From contig CAMYJD010000007.1 in the NCBI GenBank assembly GCA_947258655.1, forward strand, positions 1 through 64,000: a stretch of 64,000 nucleotides of DNA, written 5' to 3'. Below the pieces are notes generated by a model. That model searched no databases. It saw nothing but the letters and a program-made list of their open reading frames with translations, and had not been told where the DNA came from. The stretch is from an uncultured Gammaproteobacteria bacterium. GTDB lineage: Bacteria; Pseudomonadota; Gammaproteobacteria; JAADHQ01. The translations under genes were made by a program, and so were the position numbers. This document shows positions 5,877 to 51,986 of the stretch, piece by piece. Numbering within the stretch: the first letter of the stretch is position 1; every line of letters starts with the position of its first letter.

Positions 5877-7418
5877 GTGACTAAAGCCAAACAGCCGCCA
5901 GGCGTAATCCAGACCCCCCGTCTGCAATTACGCCGTATAGGCATCGACACTTACCGCGAAAATGTCGCCTATCTTCACCGTGATTGCCATATCTATCGCG
6001 CCGAAGGCTTTCAAGCCCTGTCCCGGGTTTTCATTGGTGCCGATGGCGGGCATATCCTCGCTGTACTGAATGTCGTCGATGACGAGGCCATCGTCTCACC
6101 GGATGAACTGGGACTGTCGGAGCAGGCCTTCGTACAACTGGGTCTGGACGCAGGGACCCCGGTCAGGATTGAACATGCCGAGCCGCCCAAGTCGATGGGT
6201 GCGGTACGCCGCAAGATCATCGGTGAAAGCCTGAGCCAGCAGGATTTTGACACAATCAGCCGCGACATCGTCGAACATCGCTATTCGAAAATGGAAATCG
6301 CGGCCTTCCTCGTTGCGTGCAGCCAGTCGGGTCTTGAGCGCGACGAGATACTGTATCTGACCCGATCCATGCTCGAATCCGGCAAACAGCTGGACTGGGA
6401 TGAAAACCTGGTCGCCGACAAACATTGCATCGGCGGTGTCCCGGGTAACCGTGCCTCGATGTTGATCGTGCCGATCGTATCGGCGCATGGCATGCTGATC
6501 CCGAAGACGTCCAGCCGCGCGATCACATCGCCGGCCGGCACGGCCGATACGATGGAGGTACTGGCCAATGTTGAACTGCAACCGGAACAGTTGCGCCATC
6601 TGATCCACAAGGAAAGAGGATTTATTGTATGGGGCGGCACCTCCAAACTTGCCCCGGTCGATGACATCTTGATATCTGTAGAACGCCCGCTGGAGATCGA
6701 CTCGATGGGACAACTGGTTGCATCGATCCTGGCAAAAAAACTGGCAGCCGGCTCGACGCATTTGTTGATCGATATACCGGTAGGGCCAACGGCGAAGGTC
6801 AGGAAAATGAATGAGGCATTGCAATTACGCAAACTGTTCGAATTTGTCGGCGATCAACTGGGCCTGCATACGGAGGTCATTATTACCGATGGCAAGCAAC
6901 CGATAGGAAGAGGTATAGGCCCGGCACTGGAGGCGCGTGATGTCATGCAGGTGCTCGCGAATGAACCCAACGCCCCGCATGACCTCAGGCAACGGGCCCT
7001 GCAACTGGCCGGCAGGATCATCGAGTTCGACCCGGATGTCAGAGGCGGCCAGGGCTACGCCATCGCCAGGGATATTCTCGATTCCGGACGCGCGCTGGAA
7101 AAAATGCAACGTATCATCAGCGGTCAGGGTGCCACAACGGAGGCTGTCGCATTGGGCTCACTGACCCATGAGGTGTGCGCACCACACAGTGGCATGGTCG
7201 AGTCCATCGATAACCTGCAGATGGCACGCATCGCACGCATGGCCGGCGCACCGATGGACAAGGGGGCCGGCGTTGACCTGTCCAAAAAACTGGGTGATGC
7301 TGTCAACAAGGGGGAACTGCTCTACCGCATCCATGCGGAGTTCAGGTCCGACTTCCAGTTTGCCTGCGACCTGGCCCACAGAGACAGCGGTTACACGATA
7401 GCAAAAGAAAAACATTAA
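5877..7418 (+). CDS. AMP phosphorylase/thymidine phosphorylase family enzyme
   Basis: The 513-residue protein has the length of archaeal-type AMP phosphorylases. An extra N-terminal domain of about 90 residues precedes the nucleoside phosphorylase fold, whereas classic DeoA has about 440 residues. Recognisable segments are the [12 protein letters not shown] phosphate loop, [20 protein letters not shown] and the [11 protein letters not shown] region. The family cleaves nucleoside monophosphates or nucleosides with phosphate, giving ribose 1,5-bisphosphate from AMP. The start is a GTG at 5877 behind AGGATC, five bases after the RRM gene. The PRPP synthetase gene starts at the next base after the stop, which suggests a shared role in phosphoribose metabolism. 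Substrate (AMP, CMP, UMP or thymidine) cannot be settled by eye. Confidence 0.85.
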
Positions 7419-8330
7419 GTGACGGACACAGACACATCTGCCGACAAGCATAGCCTGAGTCTGCTGCATTTCCCGCACAGTGTCGACAGCGCCAGTGCCC
7501 TGGCAAAGCGGCTCGGCATTGACTGCCACCAGATCGATGTGCATCGCTTCCCCGACCATGAGGCACGTATTACCCTGCCTGACATCGACAATGAAGCCGT
7601 GGCCATTTACCTGAGTCTTGATGACCCAGACCATAAACTGATCGAGTTGATGCTGGCCTGCGCGGCCTTAACGGAAGCGGGCATACGCTCCATAATCCTG
7701 ATTGCACCCTATCTGTGTTATATGCGCCAGGACATCGCCTTCCAGCGTGGACAGGCGGTCAGCCAGCGCATCGTTGGCCAGTTCCTGGCCTCACTCGTCG
7801 ATATTATCATCACTGTCGATCCACACCTGCATCGCACGACCGAGCTGGGCGATGCCGTACCGGCGAAACAGGCCATTGCCCTGTCCAGCGCCGGATTACA
7901 GGCCGAACATATCAATCAGCATTTTCCCGGTGCACTGCTGATCGGACCAGACCGCGAATCGGAACAATGGGTCGGTCGCATTGCAGCACTGAGCGGATGC
8001 GACTATCTGGTCGCCGACAAGCAACGCCGCGGTGACCGCTCGGTACAGATCACGTTGCCCGAGGCCGCAATCAGCGGCCGCCAGGTGCTGCTGATCGATG
8101 ATATGGCCAGTACCGGGCAAACGCTGGCGGCCTGTGCGCACATCCTGCAGCAACGTCAGGCAGAGGAAATCCATGCATTGATCACGCATGCACTATTTAC
8201 CCGCCAGGCAGAACAACTGCTCACCCGGGCCGGTATCGCCTCGGTCTGCAGTACCGACTCGATCAGTCATCCCAGTAACTGCATCAGCCTGACCCCGTTA
8301 CTGGCCGCTACCCTGCAAGGCCTTATTTGA
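7419..8330 (+). CDS. Ribose-phosphate pyrophosphokinase-like protein (PRPP synthetase)
   Basis: A 303-residue protein of the PRPP synthetase family, which makes PRPP from ribose 5-phosphate and ATP. It shows FPDHEARITL (usually FPDGE), the ATP-binding RQD in YMRQDIAF, DPHLHRTTEL at the metal-binding histidine, a short flexible-loop equivalent DKQRRGDRS and the PRPP loop LLIDDMASTGQT. The sequence resembles the short archaeal-like class more than the main bacterial Prs of about 315 residues. It begins with GTG immediately after the phosphorylase stop, so the two genes look translationally coupled. It is probably a second, specialised PRPP synthetase; the housekeeping prs is not in the window. 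Confidence 0.85.
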   Translation: MTDTDTSADKHSLSLLHFPHSVDSASALAKRLGIDCHQIDVHRFPDHEARITLPDIDNEAVAIYLSLDDPDHKLIELMLACAALTEAGIRSIILIAPYLCYMRQDIAFQRGQAVSQRIVGQFLASLVDIIITVDPHLHRTTELGDAVPAKQAIALSSAGLQAEHINQHFPGALLIGPDRESEQWVGRIAALSGCDYLVADKQRRGDRSVQITLPEAAISGRQVLLIDDMASTGQTLAACAHILQQRQAEEIHALITHALFTRQAEQLLTRAGIASVCSTDSISHPSNCISLTPLLAATLQGLI

Positions 8331-11116: not shown

Positions 11117-11564
11117 TGTATTCCCTCCTGATTGGATAATGGAAACTGTATATTGTTACAACAGGCGATGCCGACCACAGATCCTTTTCAGTATATAGTC
11201 AACGCCGTTGCTGCTATTATGAAGTATAGTTGTTCCCGCTACAAATGCAGTGTAATCGCCATGCAGGATTTTGTATTCGTAAGCGGCTGCGCTGCACATT
11301 AATTACTGCCTGAATTAAACACAACATGACACTCCGGCAACTCAATTCACGATTTCATTAAACGCTAATATAAGCAATCAAACTGGTTCAACATGCTTTA
11401 CGGGCATTACACTGTTATTGACTGTATCAATCCGTATGCCGTGACAGTCCGGGGTAATTGTAAAGCCGCACAAACACTCAAGAGTTCTGGCGACAGGACG
11501 AAAACCAGTATATTCATATATTATAAAGGAACATGCTCACTGCTAAGTGAGCGGGATAAACCTT
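11117..11564. other. Intergenic leader of the MotB/MotA-like pair
   Basis: About 450 bases without a supported gene. It carries the divergent promoters of the HMA-like gene and the MotB-like gene. A perfect 7-bp hairpin (GCTCACT, loop GCTA, AGTGAGC) at 11535-11552 ends 12 bases before the ATG at 11565, and an AAGGA at 11526-11530 lies upstream of it. Confidence 0.6.
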
Positions 11565-12452
11565 ATGTCAGAAATCGATACAGATGCCAGCGACAAAGAC
11601 GCGTCAGGCAAAAACCCTGATCCGCAGTCAGCGTCACAGATCGAGCCGATTAAAGTCAGCAGATCACGACGGCCATCGAGCCCTGCGTGGTCTCTCGATC
11701 AGCACAGGGATAGTGGACTGCGCACAGAGTACTTCATCAGCGATGATGACAACATCTGGTCGATACCCTGGGCCAACCTGATGATGGTGTTGTTTGCGAT
11801 CGTGTTTATGCTCATCAGTCTGCAGAGCAGGGATTCACAAACGCAAACGACTGTAGTCGGCATGAGCGCCACTCATCAACCGGCGTCGCAGCAGTCAGTG
11901 AATCCGGTCCCGATTGGAAAAGCGCACAGCACCGATACTGTATCGCAACTATCTTTGCCAAGCGCTGCGACAGCTGTCACGCCAACGAGCCTGTTGGTGC
12001 ATATCACGAAATCACTGGGTGTGGCAGACAACGGCCAGGTCACGACTACACAAATGCCCGACCAGTCCATCAAGTTAAGCCTGGCCGCGGACATGCTTTT
12101 CGAATCCAATACTGCGCAACTGACCCAACAGGCACACGTCATCCTCGACCAGGTTTCCGGTTTGCTGCACAACATGCAGCGGCAAATCCACATCGTCGGC
12201 CATACCGACGATCAGGCCGTCGCCAGCGAGCGATACCAGGATAACTGGGCGCTGTCGCTGGCGCGCGCGAGTGCGGTGACGAGATACCTTATCGATCCTG
12301 GCAAGATCAATGGCGCCAGGTTTATAGTCAGCGGACGGGCGCAGTATGCGCCGCTGGCATCGAATCTGATCGCAAGTTCCCGCGCCATGAACAGACGCGT
12401 GGACATTATTATCACACCTGGTACTTACCCGCCAGTGGAGAGTAAATCATGA
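11565..12452 (+). CDS. MotB/OmpA-like protein with Asn at the ion-channel Asp position
   Basis: A 295-residue protein with a polar N-terminus of about 60 residues, one membrane helix (about 70-87, LMMVLFAIVFMLISL) and a C-terminal OmpA/MotB peptidoglycan-binding domain (IVGHTDDQAV, RASAVTRYL, VSGRAQYAP). MotB proteins anchor stator complexes to peptidoglycan and conduct ions through an Asp at the helix start (YADFMT or FADLMT). Here the equivalent reads WANLMM, with Asn71 encoded by AAC. The start at 11565 was chosen over an in-frame GTG at 11547 because GCGGG lies close upstream. The MotA-like gene overlaps its stop, so the two form one unit. No flagellar gene is near. Confidence 0.85.
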   Translation: MSEIDTDASDKDASGKNPDPQSASQIEPIKVSRSRRPSSPAWSLDQHRDSGLRTEYFISDDDNIWSIPWANLMMVLFAIVFMLISLQSRDSQTQTTVVGMSATHQPASQQSVNPVPIGKAHSTDTVSQLSLPSAATAVTPTSLLVHITKSLGVADNGQVTTTQMPDQSIKLSLAADMLFESNTAQLTQQAHVILDQVSGLLHNMQRQIHIVGHTDDQAVASERYQDNWALSLARASAVTRYLIDPGKINGARFIVSGRAQYAPLASNLIASSRAMNRRVDIIITPGTYPPVESKS

Positions 12453-13261
12453 TGACACGCTATAACTGGCTGGCTGTTGCGCTATTCGCCAGCCTGTTTG
12501 TAACCAGTTTCTATGTATACGATAATGCCGCGCTGTTTTTTAATCCCCTCGGCCTGCTGGTCGTGATCTCGGGCACACTCGGCGCGATGTTCCTGAGCTA
12601 TTCCTCTACCGACATCGTTGCCGCCGCGCGTGTCGCCCATAATGCCTATACAGTAGAGCCGCCAACGACCGATGAAATCGTTGACACGCTAATGGACCTG
12701 TCGGTGCGCTCACGCCGCAAAGGCATGCTGGCGCTGGAGGATGCCGAGGAGGAGACGACCGTGAGTTTTTTACGCCGCGCCCTGGAGATGCTGGTCGACA
12801 GTTACAGCGCCGACGAATTACGCGACATCCTCTATACCGAGATGCATTACTTTCATGAACGCCGAATCCACCATGAGCGCCTGTTTCGCCATGCCGCGCG
12901 CCTGGCTCCTGCGTTCGGTGTCGCCGGCAGTATCGTCGGCCTGATTGCAATGCTGTCCGGCTATGGCGAGCAGCATTTTATTATGCAGAACATGGCGGTC
13001 GCATTGACATCGATCCTGTACGGCATCGTTATAGGCAACTTCATCCTCAATCCGATTGCCGAAAACATCAATGCCAAGACCGGTCGTGAACTAATGATGC
13101 AGAAGCTGGTAACTGACGGTGTCATGGCCATCCAGTCCGAGCAGAATTCAGTACGCCTGGCAAAAAAACTGGAGTCGTTTCTGACACCGGCCGCGCGTCA
13201 GGCCAGTGGACATTCATTCGACGAAATCAGGGAGCGTGTGCGCAAGCTGCAGTCCGAATGA
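12449..13261 (+). CDS. MotA/PomA-like membrane protein
   Basis: A 270-residue protein of the MotA/TolQ/ExbB family. It has two N-terminal membrane helices (WLAVALFASLFVTSFYVY and FNPLGLLVVISGTLGAMFL), a charged cytoplasmic domain (about 50-145) and two C-terminal helices. The third helix contains LAPAFGVAGSIVGLI with the conserved proline at 154. The fourth contains ALTSILYGIVIGNFILNPIAENI-like residues typical of PomA. Its ATG overlaps the MotB-like stop (ATGATGA) behind GGAGAG. With its partner it should form a stator-like complex, but the missing Asp in the MotB-like partner makes ion-driven work doubtful or different. A role outside flagellar motility is likely because no flagellar genes adjoin it. 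Confidence 0.88.
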   Translation: MMTRYNWLAVALFASLFVTSFYVYDNAALFFNPLGLLVVISGTLGAMFLSYSSTDIVAAARVAHNAYTVEPPTTDEIVDTLMDLSVRSRRKGMLALEDAEEETTVSFLRRALEMLVDSYSADELRDILYTEMHYFHERRIHHERLFRHAARLAPAFGVAGSIVGLIAMLSGYGEQHFIMQNMAVALTSILYGIVIGNFILNPIAENINAKTGRELMMQKLVTDGVMAIQSEQNSVRLAKKLESFLTPAARQASGHSFDEIRERVRKLQSE

Positions 13262-17069: not shown

Positions 17070-17969
17070 TTATTTCAGTCTCAACTCTACCCTGCGGTTC
17101 TGTGCACGACCGTCACGCGTCTTGTTGCTGGCGATCGGGCTGTCCGGTCCATAACCGCGTGCGGTAAGATTGCCGGCCGCAACGCCTTTACCGATCAGGT
17201 ACTGACGTACAGATTCAGCACGCCTCTTCGACAGCATGACATTGTAGCTGCGTGCACCACTGCTATCGGTATGACCAGCCACTTCTACTTTCTGGTCTGG
17301 ATAGCGCTTCAGTGTCGCCGCCATGTCATCCAGTACCGCGGATGATGCTGCTGTCAGTTGGGCACTGTTATTGCCGAAGTTCACGCCGCGCAACTGGATA
17401 CGTCCTTTCAGCTCACAACCCTTGTTATCGACCTTGATGCCACTGGCTGTACCTGGACATTTGTCGAGGTAATCGGCTATACCGTCACCGTCGCTATCCT
17501 TGGGGCAACCATTGCTATCAACAGGTGCGCCGGCCGGGGTTCCAGGACATCTATCCAGGTAATCGGCAACGCCATCACCATCGCTGTCTTTGGGACAACC
17601 ACTGCCATCAACCGTGGCGCCTGCAGGTGTACCTGCACAGTTATCCTTGTAATCAGCAACGCCGTCACCATCCGAATCCAGTGGGCAGCCTTCGCCGTCT
17701 ACTTTTGCATTGGCTGGCGTATCAGGACATTTGTCCTTGGCGTCAGCAACACCGTCACCGTCCTTGTCATCTATGCCGCCTTCACAAGAAGCAATCGAAT
17801 GTTTCGGCGCCCACGATCCCGTCCTGACACAGTAGCCGTAATTGTCGTGTACGAGCTGGCCAGCGCTATCAACAGCATAACCAATTATATCTTTAGCGAT
17901 AGCCTGGTTTGCTGACACCAGACCCAGAGACATCATCACTACGTATGCAACGAATGACAGATATTTCAT
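17070..17969 (-). CDS. OmpA-family outer-membrane protein with thrombospondin type 3 repeats
   Basis: A 299-residue protein with a signal peptide (about 1-25, ending NQAIA). A short domain with two Cys follows (YGYCVRTGSW, ASCEGG), then about five calcium-binding TSP3-type repeats (DSDGDGVADY, CPGTPAGAPVD) and a C-terminal OmpA domain (VAGHTDSSGARSYN, KRRAESVRQYL, ARGYGPDSPI). The last domain binds peptidoglycan. There is no room for a full eight-strand barrel before the repeats, so it is probably a periplasmic or outer-membrane-attached linker. The ATG at 17969 follows AAGGAGAG. The gene is monocistronic with a terminator. Confidence 0.9.
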   Translation of the reverse strand: MKYLSFVAYVVMMSLGLVSANQAIAKDIIGYAVDSAGQLVHDNYGYCVRTGSWAPKHSIASCEGGIDDKDGDGVADAKDKCPDTPANAKVDGEGCPLDSDGDGVADYKDNCAGTPAGATVDGSGCPKDSDGDGVADYLDRCPGTPAGAPVDSNGCPKDSDGDGIADYLDKCPGTASGIKVDNKGCELKGRIQLRGVNFGNNSAQLTAASSAVLDDMAATLKRYPDQKVEVAGHTDSSGARSYNVMLSKRRAESVRQYLIGKGVAAGNLTARGYGPDSPIASNKTRDGRAQNRRVELRLK

Positions 17970-18213
17970 CAATACTCTCCTTAAAAATTATTAATTAAGC
18001 ATTTATGCAACGCGAAGCCTGATGCCTGTGTGCATTCCTGATGAGCGGATATTACAGAATATAAAACTGCCTGGAAAGTGGAAAAACACCAAATTTACAG
18101 TTGTTAACATAGGCGTAACATTTTAATAATGATTGCCAGAGCGACATACGATGTGGCGGCCGGACTAATACAGACTGTGTCTGGTTTGACCTGTAATGTA
18201 GTTTTTTACTTCA

Positions 18214-50490: not shown

Positions 50491-50994
50491 TTACTTTACC
50501 AGTGTAAATCCGTAATCGGCCGTATAGATTTTTTTCTGTGCAATCACTTCAACGCGGGCAAGCCAGTCACTGCGTCCACTAGTGCAGATTGGCAGAATGA
50601 CCATGCCACTCCAGGCGCCCGTTTCGGTATTGAACTGCAGTTTTTGCTGCAAATCACCCATATCCATAGCCTGCATGCTAAAAATCAGCCTGACATCTAT
50701 GTGCTGCGGATTTTGCACACCATCGATTTGCACTTGCACGGGAAAGGCCTTTAATGCGCTGGGCCTGTCCTGCAATGCAAGCAACACATGAATGCCTTCC
50801 CTGCTAGCGCTGCAGGCAGATTGACTGATATCACAGGCAGCGTCGACGATCAGGCGATATTGTTCATAGACTTCATGATGCCGATCGCCGGCAAAATAGC
50901 CTTGACGCAGTTGCAGGAAAAATGCGATCAGTAACATTATCGACACGATCAGCAAGCTGCGCATATTGATAAAGCGCTGCCAGCGCACACTCAT
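50491..50994 (-). CDS. Hypothetical protein with one N-terminal membrane anchor
   Basis: A 167-residue protein I do not recognise. It has a membrane helix near residues 13-30 (LLIVSIMLLIAFFLQL) and a periplasmic domain with three cysteines (ACDISQSAC and LPICTSGRSDW). The MDMGDLQQKL and W-containing C-terminal part faintly resemble FixH-like domains. Its ATG overlaps the Nudix/ThiE gene stop (ATGA), so translation is coupled. The larger open frame continuing upstream runs into the overlapping gene and is not used. Confidence 0.75.
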   Translation of the reverse strand: MSVRWQRFINMRSLLIVSIMLLIAFFLQLRQGYFAGDRHHEVYEQYRLIVDAACDISQSACSASREGIHVLLALQDRPSALKAFPVQVQIDGVQNPQHIDVRLIFSMQAMDMGDLQQKLQFNTETGAWSGMVILPICTSGRSDWLARVEVIAQKKIYTADYGFTLVK

Positions 50995-51986
50995 GCTTGT
51001 CCACACCATAAAGAGCGAATAGCGGCAATGCCCTGGGCGCCATACAATTGGGCATTGCTGATATCGGCCTCGCCCAGACCTCCGAGGGCGTACGCAGGCA
51101 TCTGCGCGAGCTCGGTCAGTTGCCGACATTTATCCCAGCCAAGGGGTAGCGCACCTGGATGGCTGCGGGTGGCCTTAATTGGCGATACAACAATAAAATC
51201 AGCACCGATGCTGTTGGCCTGGCGTACCTCGGCAGAATCATGGCAGGATGCAGACAGGTAGACATCCGCGGGAACCGGTCTTTGCGCCAGGACGAGCAGG
51301 CGGGAACTGCTCAAATGCAGACCATCGGCCGGACAACGCTGAAACACCTCCTGCGTTCGGTTAAGTATCACGCGTGCGTCGTAACGATGCGCCAGTTCTA
51401 TGATTTGCCCGGCCATATCCATGTACTGGTCATCATCGACATCATTATCCCGGTACTGGATCAGGCGTATTCCGGATTGCAAACACACCTGCAGACTATC
51501 GATGAATGCAGCACCACGCGCGCTCCTGGCCGGGGTGATAAGATAACGATCGGGGAGTTGCACGGCATGAATAATGGGCAGGTTTGCGGCCGGCATCGGC
51601 CATTCATGCAGATCAGCGTGGTTGACCCACTGCACCGCCTGCCCTTCCCTACCGTAAGCTGTGCCATCATAGGCTTCTATCCGATGCACATCCAGCAGCA
51701 CCTTGCGCTCGGCATAATCATGGCGGATGCGGATCAACGGACGCATGCGGGTCACGCTTATCCCTACCTCCTCCTGCAGCTCACGCGTCAATGCATCAGC
51801 AACCTGTTCACCGGCCTCGACCTTGCCACCCGGGAATTCCCACAGGCCGCCCTGATGCACATGCCCGGGGCGCCGGGCCAACAGCACCTGCGTTCCATTG
51901 TCGATAACAGCCACGGCAACGTGAATTATTCCGGCTTCTGCAGACACGGTAGATATAACAGTCGACTCAGGTGCGGTATTCTGCAT
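50991..51986 (-). CDS. Nudix hydrolase fused to a thiamine-phosphate-synthase-like domain
   Basis: A 331-residue two-domain protein. The N-terminal MutT-like domain has a Nudix box GGKVEAGEQVADALTRELQEE and probably hydrolyses 8-oxo-dGTP. The C-terminal ThiE-like domain (YLITPARSARG, LIQYRDND, GLHLSSSRLL, PIKATRSHPG, ALGGLG) lacks the canonical phosphate-binding residues and may not make thiamine phosphate. The same fusion is known in other gammaproteobacteria. The ATG at 51986 lies inside the end of argJ (20-base overlap), so it is probably coupled. Confidence 0.9.
   Translation of the reverse strand: MQNTAPESTVISTVSAEAGIIHVAVAVIDNGTQVLLARRPGHVHQGGLWEFPGGKVEAGEQVADALTRELQEEVGISVTRMRPLIRIRHDYAERKVLLDVHRIEAYDGTAYGREGQAVQWVNHADLHEWPMPAANLPIIHAVQLPDRYLITPARSARGAAFIDSLQVCLQSGIRLIQYRDNDVDDDQYMDMAGQIIELAHRYDARVILNRTQEVFQRCPADGLHLSSSRLLVLAQRPVPADVYLSASCHDSAEVRQANSIGADFIVVSPIKATRSHPGALPLGWDKCRQLTELAQMPAYALGGLGEADISNAQLYGAQGIAAIRSLWCGQA

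Follow-up and report, generated by a model that had tools for sequence, protein, structure and literature searches.

A 64,000-nucleotide stretch of DNA from an uncultured Gammaproteobacteria bacterium (contig CAMYJD010000007.1; hereafter the window, meaning the whole stretch that was analysed) contains a MotB-like gene followed by a MotA-like gene, and in the MotB-like protein an asparagine, Asn71, occupies the place where flagellar stators carry an aspartate. Ion-driven stators are held to need this Asp of the B helix, and its replacement by Asn is the standard dead control (PMC6677748, PMC9389320, PMC6663468). What use, then, can a bacterium have for a stator-like pair with Asn at this position?

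Both open reading frames are present in the window, with an ATGA overlap between the genes; the features discussed below are collected in Table 1. The B subunit consists of one membrane helix and an OmpA-like domain, the architecture of flagellar stator B subunits, as seen with Pfam, profile comparison, the AF2 model and Foldseek; the plug model MotB_plug (PF13677) gives 11.5 bits against a cut-off of 24. The A subunit matches solved PomA and MotA chains in phmmer searches, with 26-29% identity to PomA, and its model has the MotA fold (Foldseek TM 0.75 to 8brd, by query length). In NCBIfam, A and B resemble stator subunits, yet all of their scores are under the curated stator cut-offs.

Table 1. 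Coordinates in the window of the gene pair and of the residues and domains discussed in the text.
Feature	Position	Strand	Evidence
MotB-like B subunit (295 aa) with a cytoplasmic N-terminus, a single membrane helix, a linker and an OmpA-like domain	11565..12452	+	ORF; Pfam OmpA E=6e-17; AF2 model
A subunit, MotA/PomA-like, 270 aa	12449..13261	+	ORF; Pfam MotA_ExbB E=3.7e-14; PDB PomA/MotA E ~1e-33; Foldseek 8brd, 8ucs
B membrane helix, residues 65-92	11757..11840	+	Sequence; AF2-modelled helix 69-92; sister comparison
Asn71 codon AAC, at the position of the essential Asp of MotB	11775..11777	+	Sequence; Asp in 12/12 other family members; AAT in sister
B linker, residues 93-155, fast-evolving	11841..12029	+	Sister comparison: residues 89-155 are 16.7% identical
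OmpA-like peptidoglycan-binding domain of B, residues 156-287	12030..12425	+	Pfam match 178-277; pLDDT mostly 81-96 from residue 160; Foldseek MotS, PomB
Ala229 of B, instead of the N-W-E-L-S Glu invariant in Asp members	12249..12251	+	Family alignment
Arg89 of A, equivalent of PomA R88, rotor interface	12713..12715	+	Arg in 11/12 Asp members, both Asn members and 27/28 outgroup MotAs
Glu97 of A, equivalent of PomA E96, rotor interface	12737..12739	+	Glu in 14/14 family members and 24/28 outgroup MotAs
Pro154 of A, TM3, kept	12908..12910	+	Pro in 28/28 outgroup MotAs, 12/12 Asp members and both Asn members
Ile189 of A, TM4, instead of the ion-path Thr (PomA T186)	13013..13015	+	Alignment to PomA; family and outgroup alignment

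Several known systems can be compared with the pair. With the sodium-driven PomA/PomB stator of Vibrio (8bri, 8brd, 8zyv) it shares the A fold, the B helix with its OmpA-like domain, the proline of TM3 and the rotor-face Arg and Glu, but it has Asn for Asp24 and Ile for Thr186, the B gene comes first, and the genes lie outside a flagellar cluster. The same four differences separate it from MotP/MotS and the Gram-positive MotA/MotB (8ucs, 6ysf, 9ljk), although among NCBIfam models A scores best against MotP (E=1.9e-48, with a score well under that model's cut-off) and the best Foldseek match of B is MotS. The scaffold is plainly PomAB/MotPS-like; because the residues that define ion binding are replaced, however, we do not file the pair as an ion-driven stator. 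The ExbB/TolQ fold of ExbBD/TolQR-type transporters is not supported for A, with Foldseek E values >0.007 to ExbB/TolQ, against 4e-12 to PomA. The OmpA part of B also matches models of ZorB from the Zorya ZorA/ZorB pair, but A matches no ZorA model (PADLOC), no ZorC or ZorD is recognised among the neighbours, the adjoining ones being a DUF2189 gene and a ClpB-like ORF; a Zorya defence system is thus ruled out.

The first point to settle is whether the asparagine is really there. The original prediction had placed Asn71 at the essential Asp through a gap-free alignment of the membrane helix, and this placement holds. A motif W-x-[VI]-P-W-[SA]-[DN]-[LF]-M is common to all 14 members of the family described below, without gaps, and the family profile aligns its [DN] position with the Asp of W-L-A-T-F-S-D in solved MotB (8ucs/6ysf); a misaligned register is thereby ruled out. 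A sequencing or assembly error at Asn71 is ruled out as well, since a sister species has Asn in a synonymously different codon (AAT instead of AAC). This sister, G003, is the metagenome-assembled genome of uncultured Gammaproteobacteria bacterium isolate ES_Gamma_034 (contig CAMYJO010000002.1). When B is used to search 56 relatives, G003 is the one genome of the same genus with a full-length match (46%, E=9.8e-71), and the order of genes is the same as in the window: GspE/PilB-like, DUF1614, SDR, DUF2189, B, A and ClpB-like (names without a family match are read from sequence). The pair is absent from the two other genomes of the genus, which are 95% and 79% complete (G001 and G002).

Searches with A show how rare such pairs are. 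At E<=1e-38, eight of 369 genomes of the class match; at E<=1e-50, the window's own genome is alone among 398 in the phylum draw; and in the orders of four carriers, whose draws overlap, the matching genomes number 4/41, 3/17, 4/36 and 1/1. The result is a family with 14 carriers, all with the B gene before the A gene, the order that had been pointed out for the window. Twelve carriers have Asp and two have Asn, namely the window's genome (G000) and G003. The Asp members are direct homologues with the same gene order (A is 53-62% identical between the window and, for example, L066, L067 and L086), but they keep the B-helix Asp, the Thr of A and a conserved anchor. In a tree of A with 28 outgroup MotAs, the 14 family members are monophyletic (support 100/100), the two Asn members group within it as a single clade (100/99), and the group uniting that clade with eight Asp members has support of 91/97. 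Both species of the genus that carry the pair have Asn, so that, among the homologues collected, the residue appears fixed in the clade; the Asn form is known from these two genomes only. Asp homologues in close relatives would be a sign of error or decay. They are instead confined to lineages outside the genus (12 of the 14 members); the change is thus derived and not an error. The same conclusion follows from the nested position of the Asn clade: judged from the sequences, Asp is ancestral and Asn is derived.

A DNA pattern for Asn-type MotB was also run over the 369 genomes of the class. It gives 52 matches, and the MotB-like ones are the window gene and the sister gene; no wider Asn-type set is found in these genomes. 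The sensitivity of the pattern can be gauged from its Asp-for-Asn version, which recovers 18 of 22 Asp MotB-like genes, the 22 being unique genes that pass the hydrophobicity and OmpA-motif filters and including only three of the 12 Asp-family B genes. A limited literature search, in one open-access collection, returned no report of a natural Asn-type MotB; in a survey from 2025 that covers MotAB together with non-flagellar homologues, the main text does not contain the terms aspartate, asparagine, D32 or D22 (PMC12505986).

The A subunit carries a change of its own. Seven of the 81 A positions that are invariant in the 12 Asp members are altered in at least one Asn member, and one of these is Thr to Ile at residue 189, where the alignment puts PomA T186. 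This site is Thr in all 12 Asp members and in all 27 readable outgroup MotAs (one of the 28, a broken G003 copy, is gapped here), and Ile in the two Asn members only. No substitute Asp or Glu is seen in the membrane core when the sequences of A and B and the family alignment are inspected by eye. The TM3 proline, said from the outset to be retained, is indeed kept (Table 1). Published mutants suggest what such changes do. In the reported results on PomAB, any one of T158A, T186A and PomB-D24N is enough to eliminate motility, ion transport and the Na+-specific signal; the T158A and T186A complexes still form and are stable ‘as observed with D24N’ (PMC6677748). Borrelia MotB-D24N is described as having no motility, yet about 7 of 16 stator sites are occupied, and an E. 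coli MotB Asp-to-Asn mutant is likewise given as non-motile (PMC6663468); D22N appears as a protonation mimic in work on C. jejuni (PMC9389320). The laboratory D24N, D32N and D22N mutants have the same Asp-to-Asn change, and the Borrelia mutant assembles and does not drive (PMC6663468), but in the window the change is natural and fixed, and is joined by a second, compensating or permissive change in TM4. Since Asn71 is real and a second conserved ion-path residue has gone, the usual proton or sodium pathway is very probably broken, as originally proposed, and the complex likely does not conduct by the canonical route. Because D24N complexes assemble, partly dock and give no drive, we commit to an ion-dead stator derivative.

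A pair that has lost its ion path could simply be eroding, and the comparison of window and sister bears on this. Synonymous differences are near saturation (pS 0.63 for A and 0.65 for B), which makes dN/dS ratios rough. Both reading frames are intact in both species. A is 91% identical (91.4%) with a dN of 0.052; among the eight neighbours compared, leaving B aside, ClpB alone has a lower value (0.036). Residues 59-88 of B show 90% identity (dN 0.049, pS 0.45), and its OmpA part shows 56% in the segment comparison. Asn has therefore been kept across saturated synonymous divergence; the identity of the helix, the synonymous change of the Asn codon and the low dN of A together indicate that the helix with its Asn is preserved and that A is not decaying. 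On these sequence comparisons, A and the B helix are under strong purifying selection, with decay unlikely for these parts, and the pair as a whole is probably functional and under selection.

The peptidoglycan anchor behaves differently from these parts. Thirteen of the 41 anchor sites invariant in Asp members are changed in the Asn pair, including the Glu of NWELS, which is Ala in both Asn members, and the Arg of LSxxRA, which is Gln in the sister only. The Asn pair, at 91.4% identity in A, has an anchor identity of 61.5%, compared with 82.9-87.2% for six Asp pairs whose A identity is 89.2-91.4%; in the A tree, the branch leading to the two Asn members measures 0.30, versus 1.05 and 0.52 on either side of the root at which the anchor tree is drawn. 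In A. baumannii OmpA, D271 and R286 are reported to bind diaminopimelate (PMC6572160). Their counterparts by motif match are Asp215, present in both species, and Arg234, present in the window and replaced by Gln in the sister. The description of the complex as peptidoglycan-anchored is thus weakened: the OmpA-like domain is there, and is still modelled confidently by AF2, but it has drifted, in the sister as far as the loss of the Arg that by motif matches the diaminopimelate-binding one. The membrane core is conserved in the Asn pair, and so is the face turned to the cytoplasm. A ring that generates no torque would depend less on being held firmly to the wall, and the drift agrees with this; a brake would need some anchor, and this is the weakest point of a reading that involves the motor.

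No flagellar gene is recognised among the large ORFs of the window, in agreement with the original prediction. FliG is encoded on another contig of the same genome (C1), and the flagellum of this organism is read from the FliG_C match (E=4.2e-42). FliG_C is found in 12 of the 14 carriers, G000 and G003 among them. Two Asp carriers, G266 (97% complete) and G823 (94%), give no FliG_C match, so membership of the family may not always go with a flagellum; G823 is also the sole member with His at the rotor-face Arg. A simple scan of window positions 11301-11600, within the allowed mismatches, finds no sigma28- or sigma54-type promoter close upstream of B, and weak sites of these types in the rest of the intergenic region, as well as in the sister, are judged to be chance. 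Rfam gives no match in the window at the gathering threshold. In the six contexts read, the genes around the pair vary from lineage to lineage, and there is no common neighbour apart from one genus with Asp-type pairs, that of G822, where a PilZ-type gene related to the one in G822 adjoins the pair in 3/3 genomes. In G822 it follows the pair (L144:6811-7560; Pfam PilZ), and G824 and G823 have related sequence adjoining their pairs (L085; L087). Another PilZ gene lies ~4 kb from the pair in G767, and none is present at the window's pair. Abstracts describe PilZ proteins as flagellar brakes acting on MotA.

The reading that we prefer, tentatively and with a probability of about 0.42, is a non-conducting stator derivative that is still under selection, most likely as a unit of the flagellar motor that docks passively or works like a brake. 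The pair would encode a stator unit (A5:B2 by homology) whose ancestor was an auxiliary stator of PomAB-like type, driven by ions. The two residues predicted to bind the coupling ion inside the channel have been replaced in this genus, the B-helix Asp by Asn71 and the Thr of A-TM4 by Ile189, and neither torque nor passage of H+ or Na+ along the known route is to be expected of the complex. With the membrane core and the cytoplasmic rotor-facing surface retained and the peptidoglycan anchor relaxed, it could take up a place in the motor, or touch it, without making torque, as a passive brake, spacer or competitor. Taken separately, passive action at the flagellar motor is a possibility that we put somewhat short of even odds. 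A more general claim, that the pair represents a natural class of ion-dead stators, in which an auxiliary stator is switched off by paired B-Asp-to-Asn and A-Thr186-to-Ile changes, the wall anchor is released and the rotor-facing ring is kept as a passive motor regulator, is rather unlikely. If the preferred reading is true, a lineage that fixed this change and lost the TM4 Thr, yet preserved the complex, would indicate that stator-type rings have uses that are free of ion flow, and it would provide a natural system in which docking is separated from torque.

The main rival is a non-energised membrane scaffold, or a gating or sensory complex, outside the flagellum, in which A and B work with a different binding partner and can do without ion coupling. 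The lack of flagellar neighbours, the lineage-dependent contexts, the two Asp carriers lacking a FliG_C match and the loss of both ion-path residues would all suit it; against this, no partner gene is conserved, the rotor-facing Arg and Glu are still present, and FliG accompanies the family in 12 of 14 carriers. We regard it as rather unlikely. A functionless pair in early decay, with A persisting for now, is less probable again. It would account for the accelerated anchor, the Arg lost in the sister and the absence of the pair from two congeners, but not readily for intact frames in both species at near-saturated dS, the low dN of A, the 90% identity of the B helix and an anchor that is still confidently modelled.

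Two further explanations are both quite improbable. The least probable has the Asn-type B pairing with the Asp-type B of another stator and so tuning or poisoning it. B is dimeric in known stators, and the window's genome has three further stator pairs, all with Asp; however, the B helix of the family is strongly unlike those of other MotBs, and A has a matching change of its own in Ile189. Scarcely better is conduction by another route, with the ion held by Asn71 and backbone carbonyls, or a hydrated ion passing without a carboxylate. The channel-lining helices of A do retain S161, T187 and S188, but D24N alone is reported to abolish PomAB transport (PMC6677748) and the equivalent changes to abolish motility with Borrelia and E. 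coli MotB (PMC6663468), the Thr186 equivalent is lost with no acidic replacement seen by eye, and A has gained aromatic residues at the TM3-TM4 loop (I173Y and V178F, trimmed-alignment numbering).

Some minor observations can be added. In the third stator pair of the sister G003 (L146:4647-6655, contig C14), the A frame stops after 197 aa, between TM3 and TM4; the B gene of that pair is intact, as is the counterpart A gene in the window's genome (L003/L076, 278 codons). Elsewhere in the window, positions 50491-51129 encode a membrane-anchored protein with no Pfam match, between a Nudix/ThiE-like gene and a divergent ORF, and the short protein encoded at 16477-16899 matches desulfoferrodoxin below threshold (E=0.0067). 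At 5877-8330, a thymidine-phosphorylase-like gene and a phosphoribosyl-pyrophosphate-synthetase-like gene abut (7418/7419) and, as read from sequence, form a candidate nucleotide-salvage pair. Finally, an OmpA-like protein with repeated DSDGDGV-type calcium-binding repeats is encoded at 17070-17972, with a syntenic copy in the sister (L034:11069-12106).
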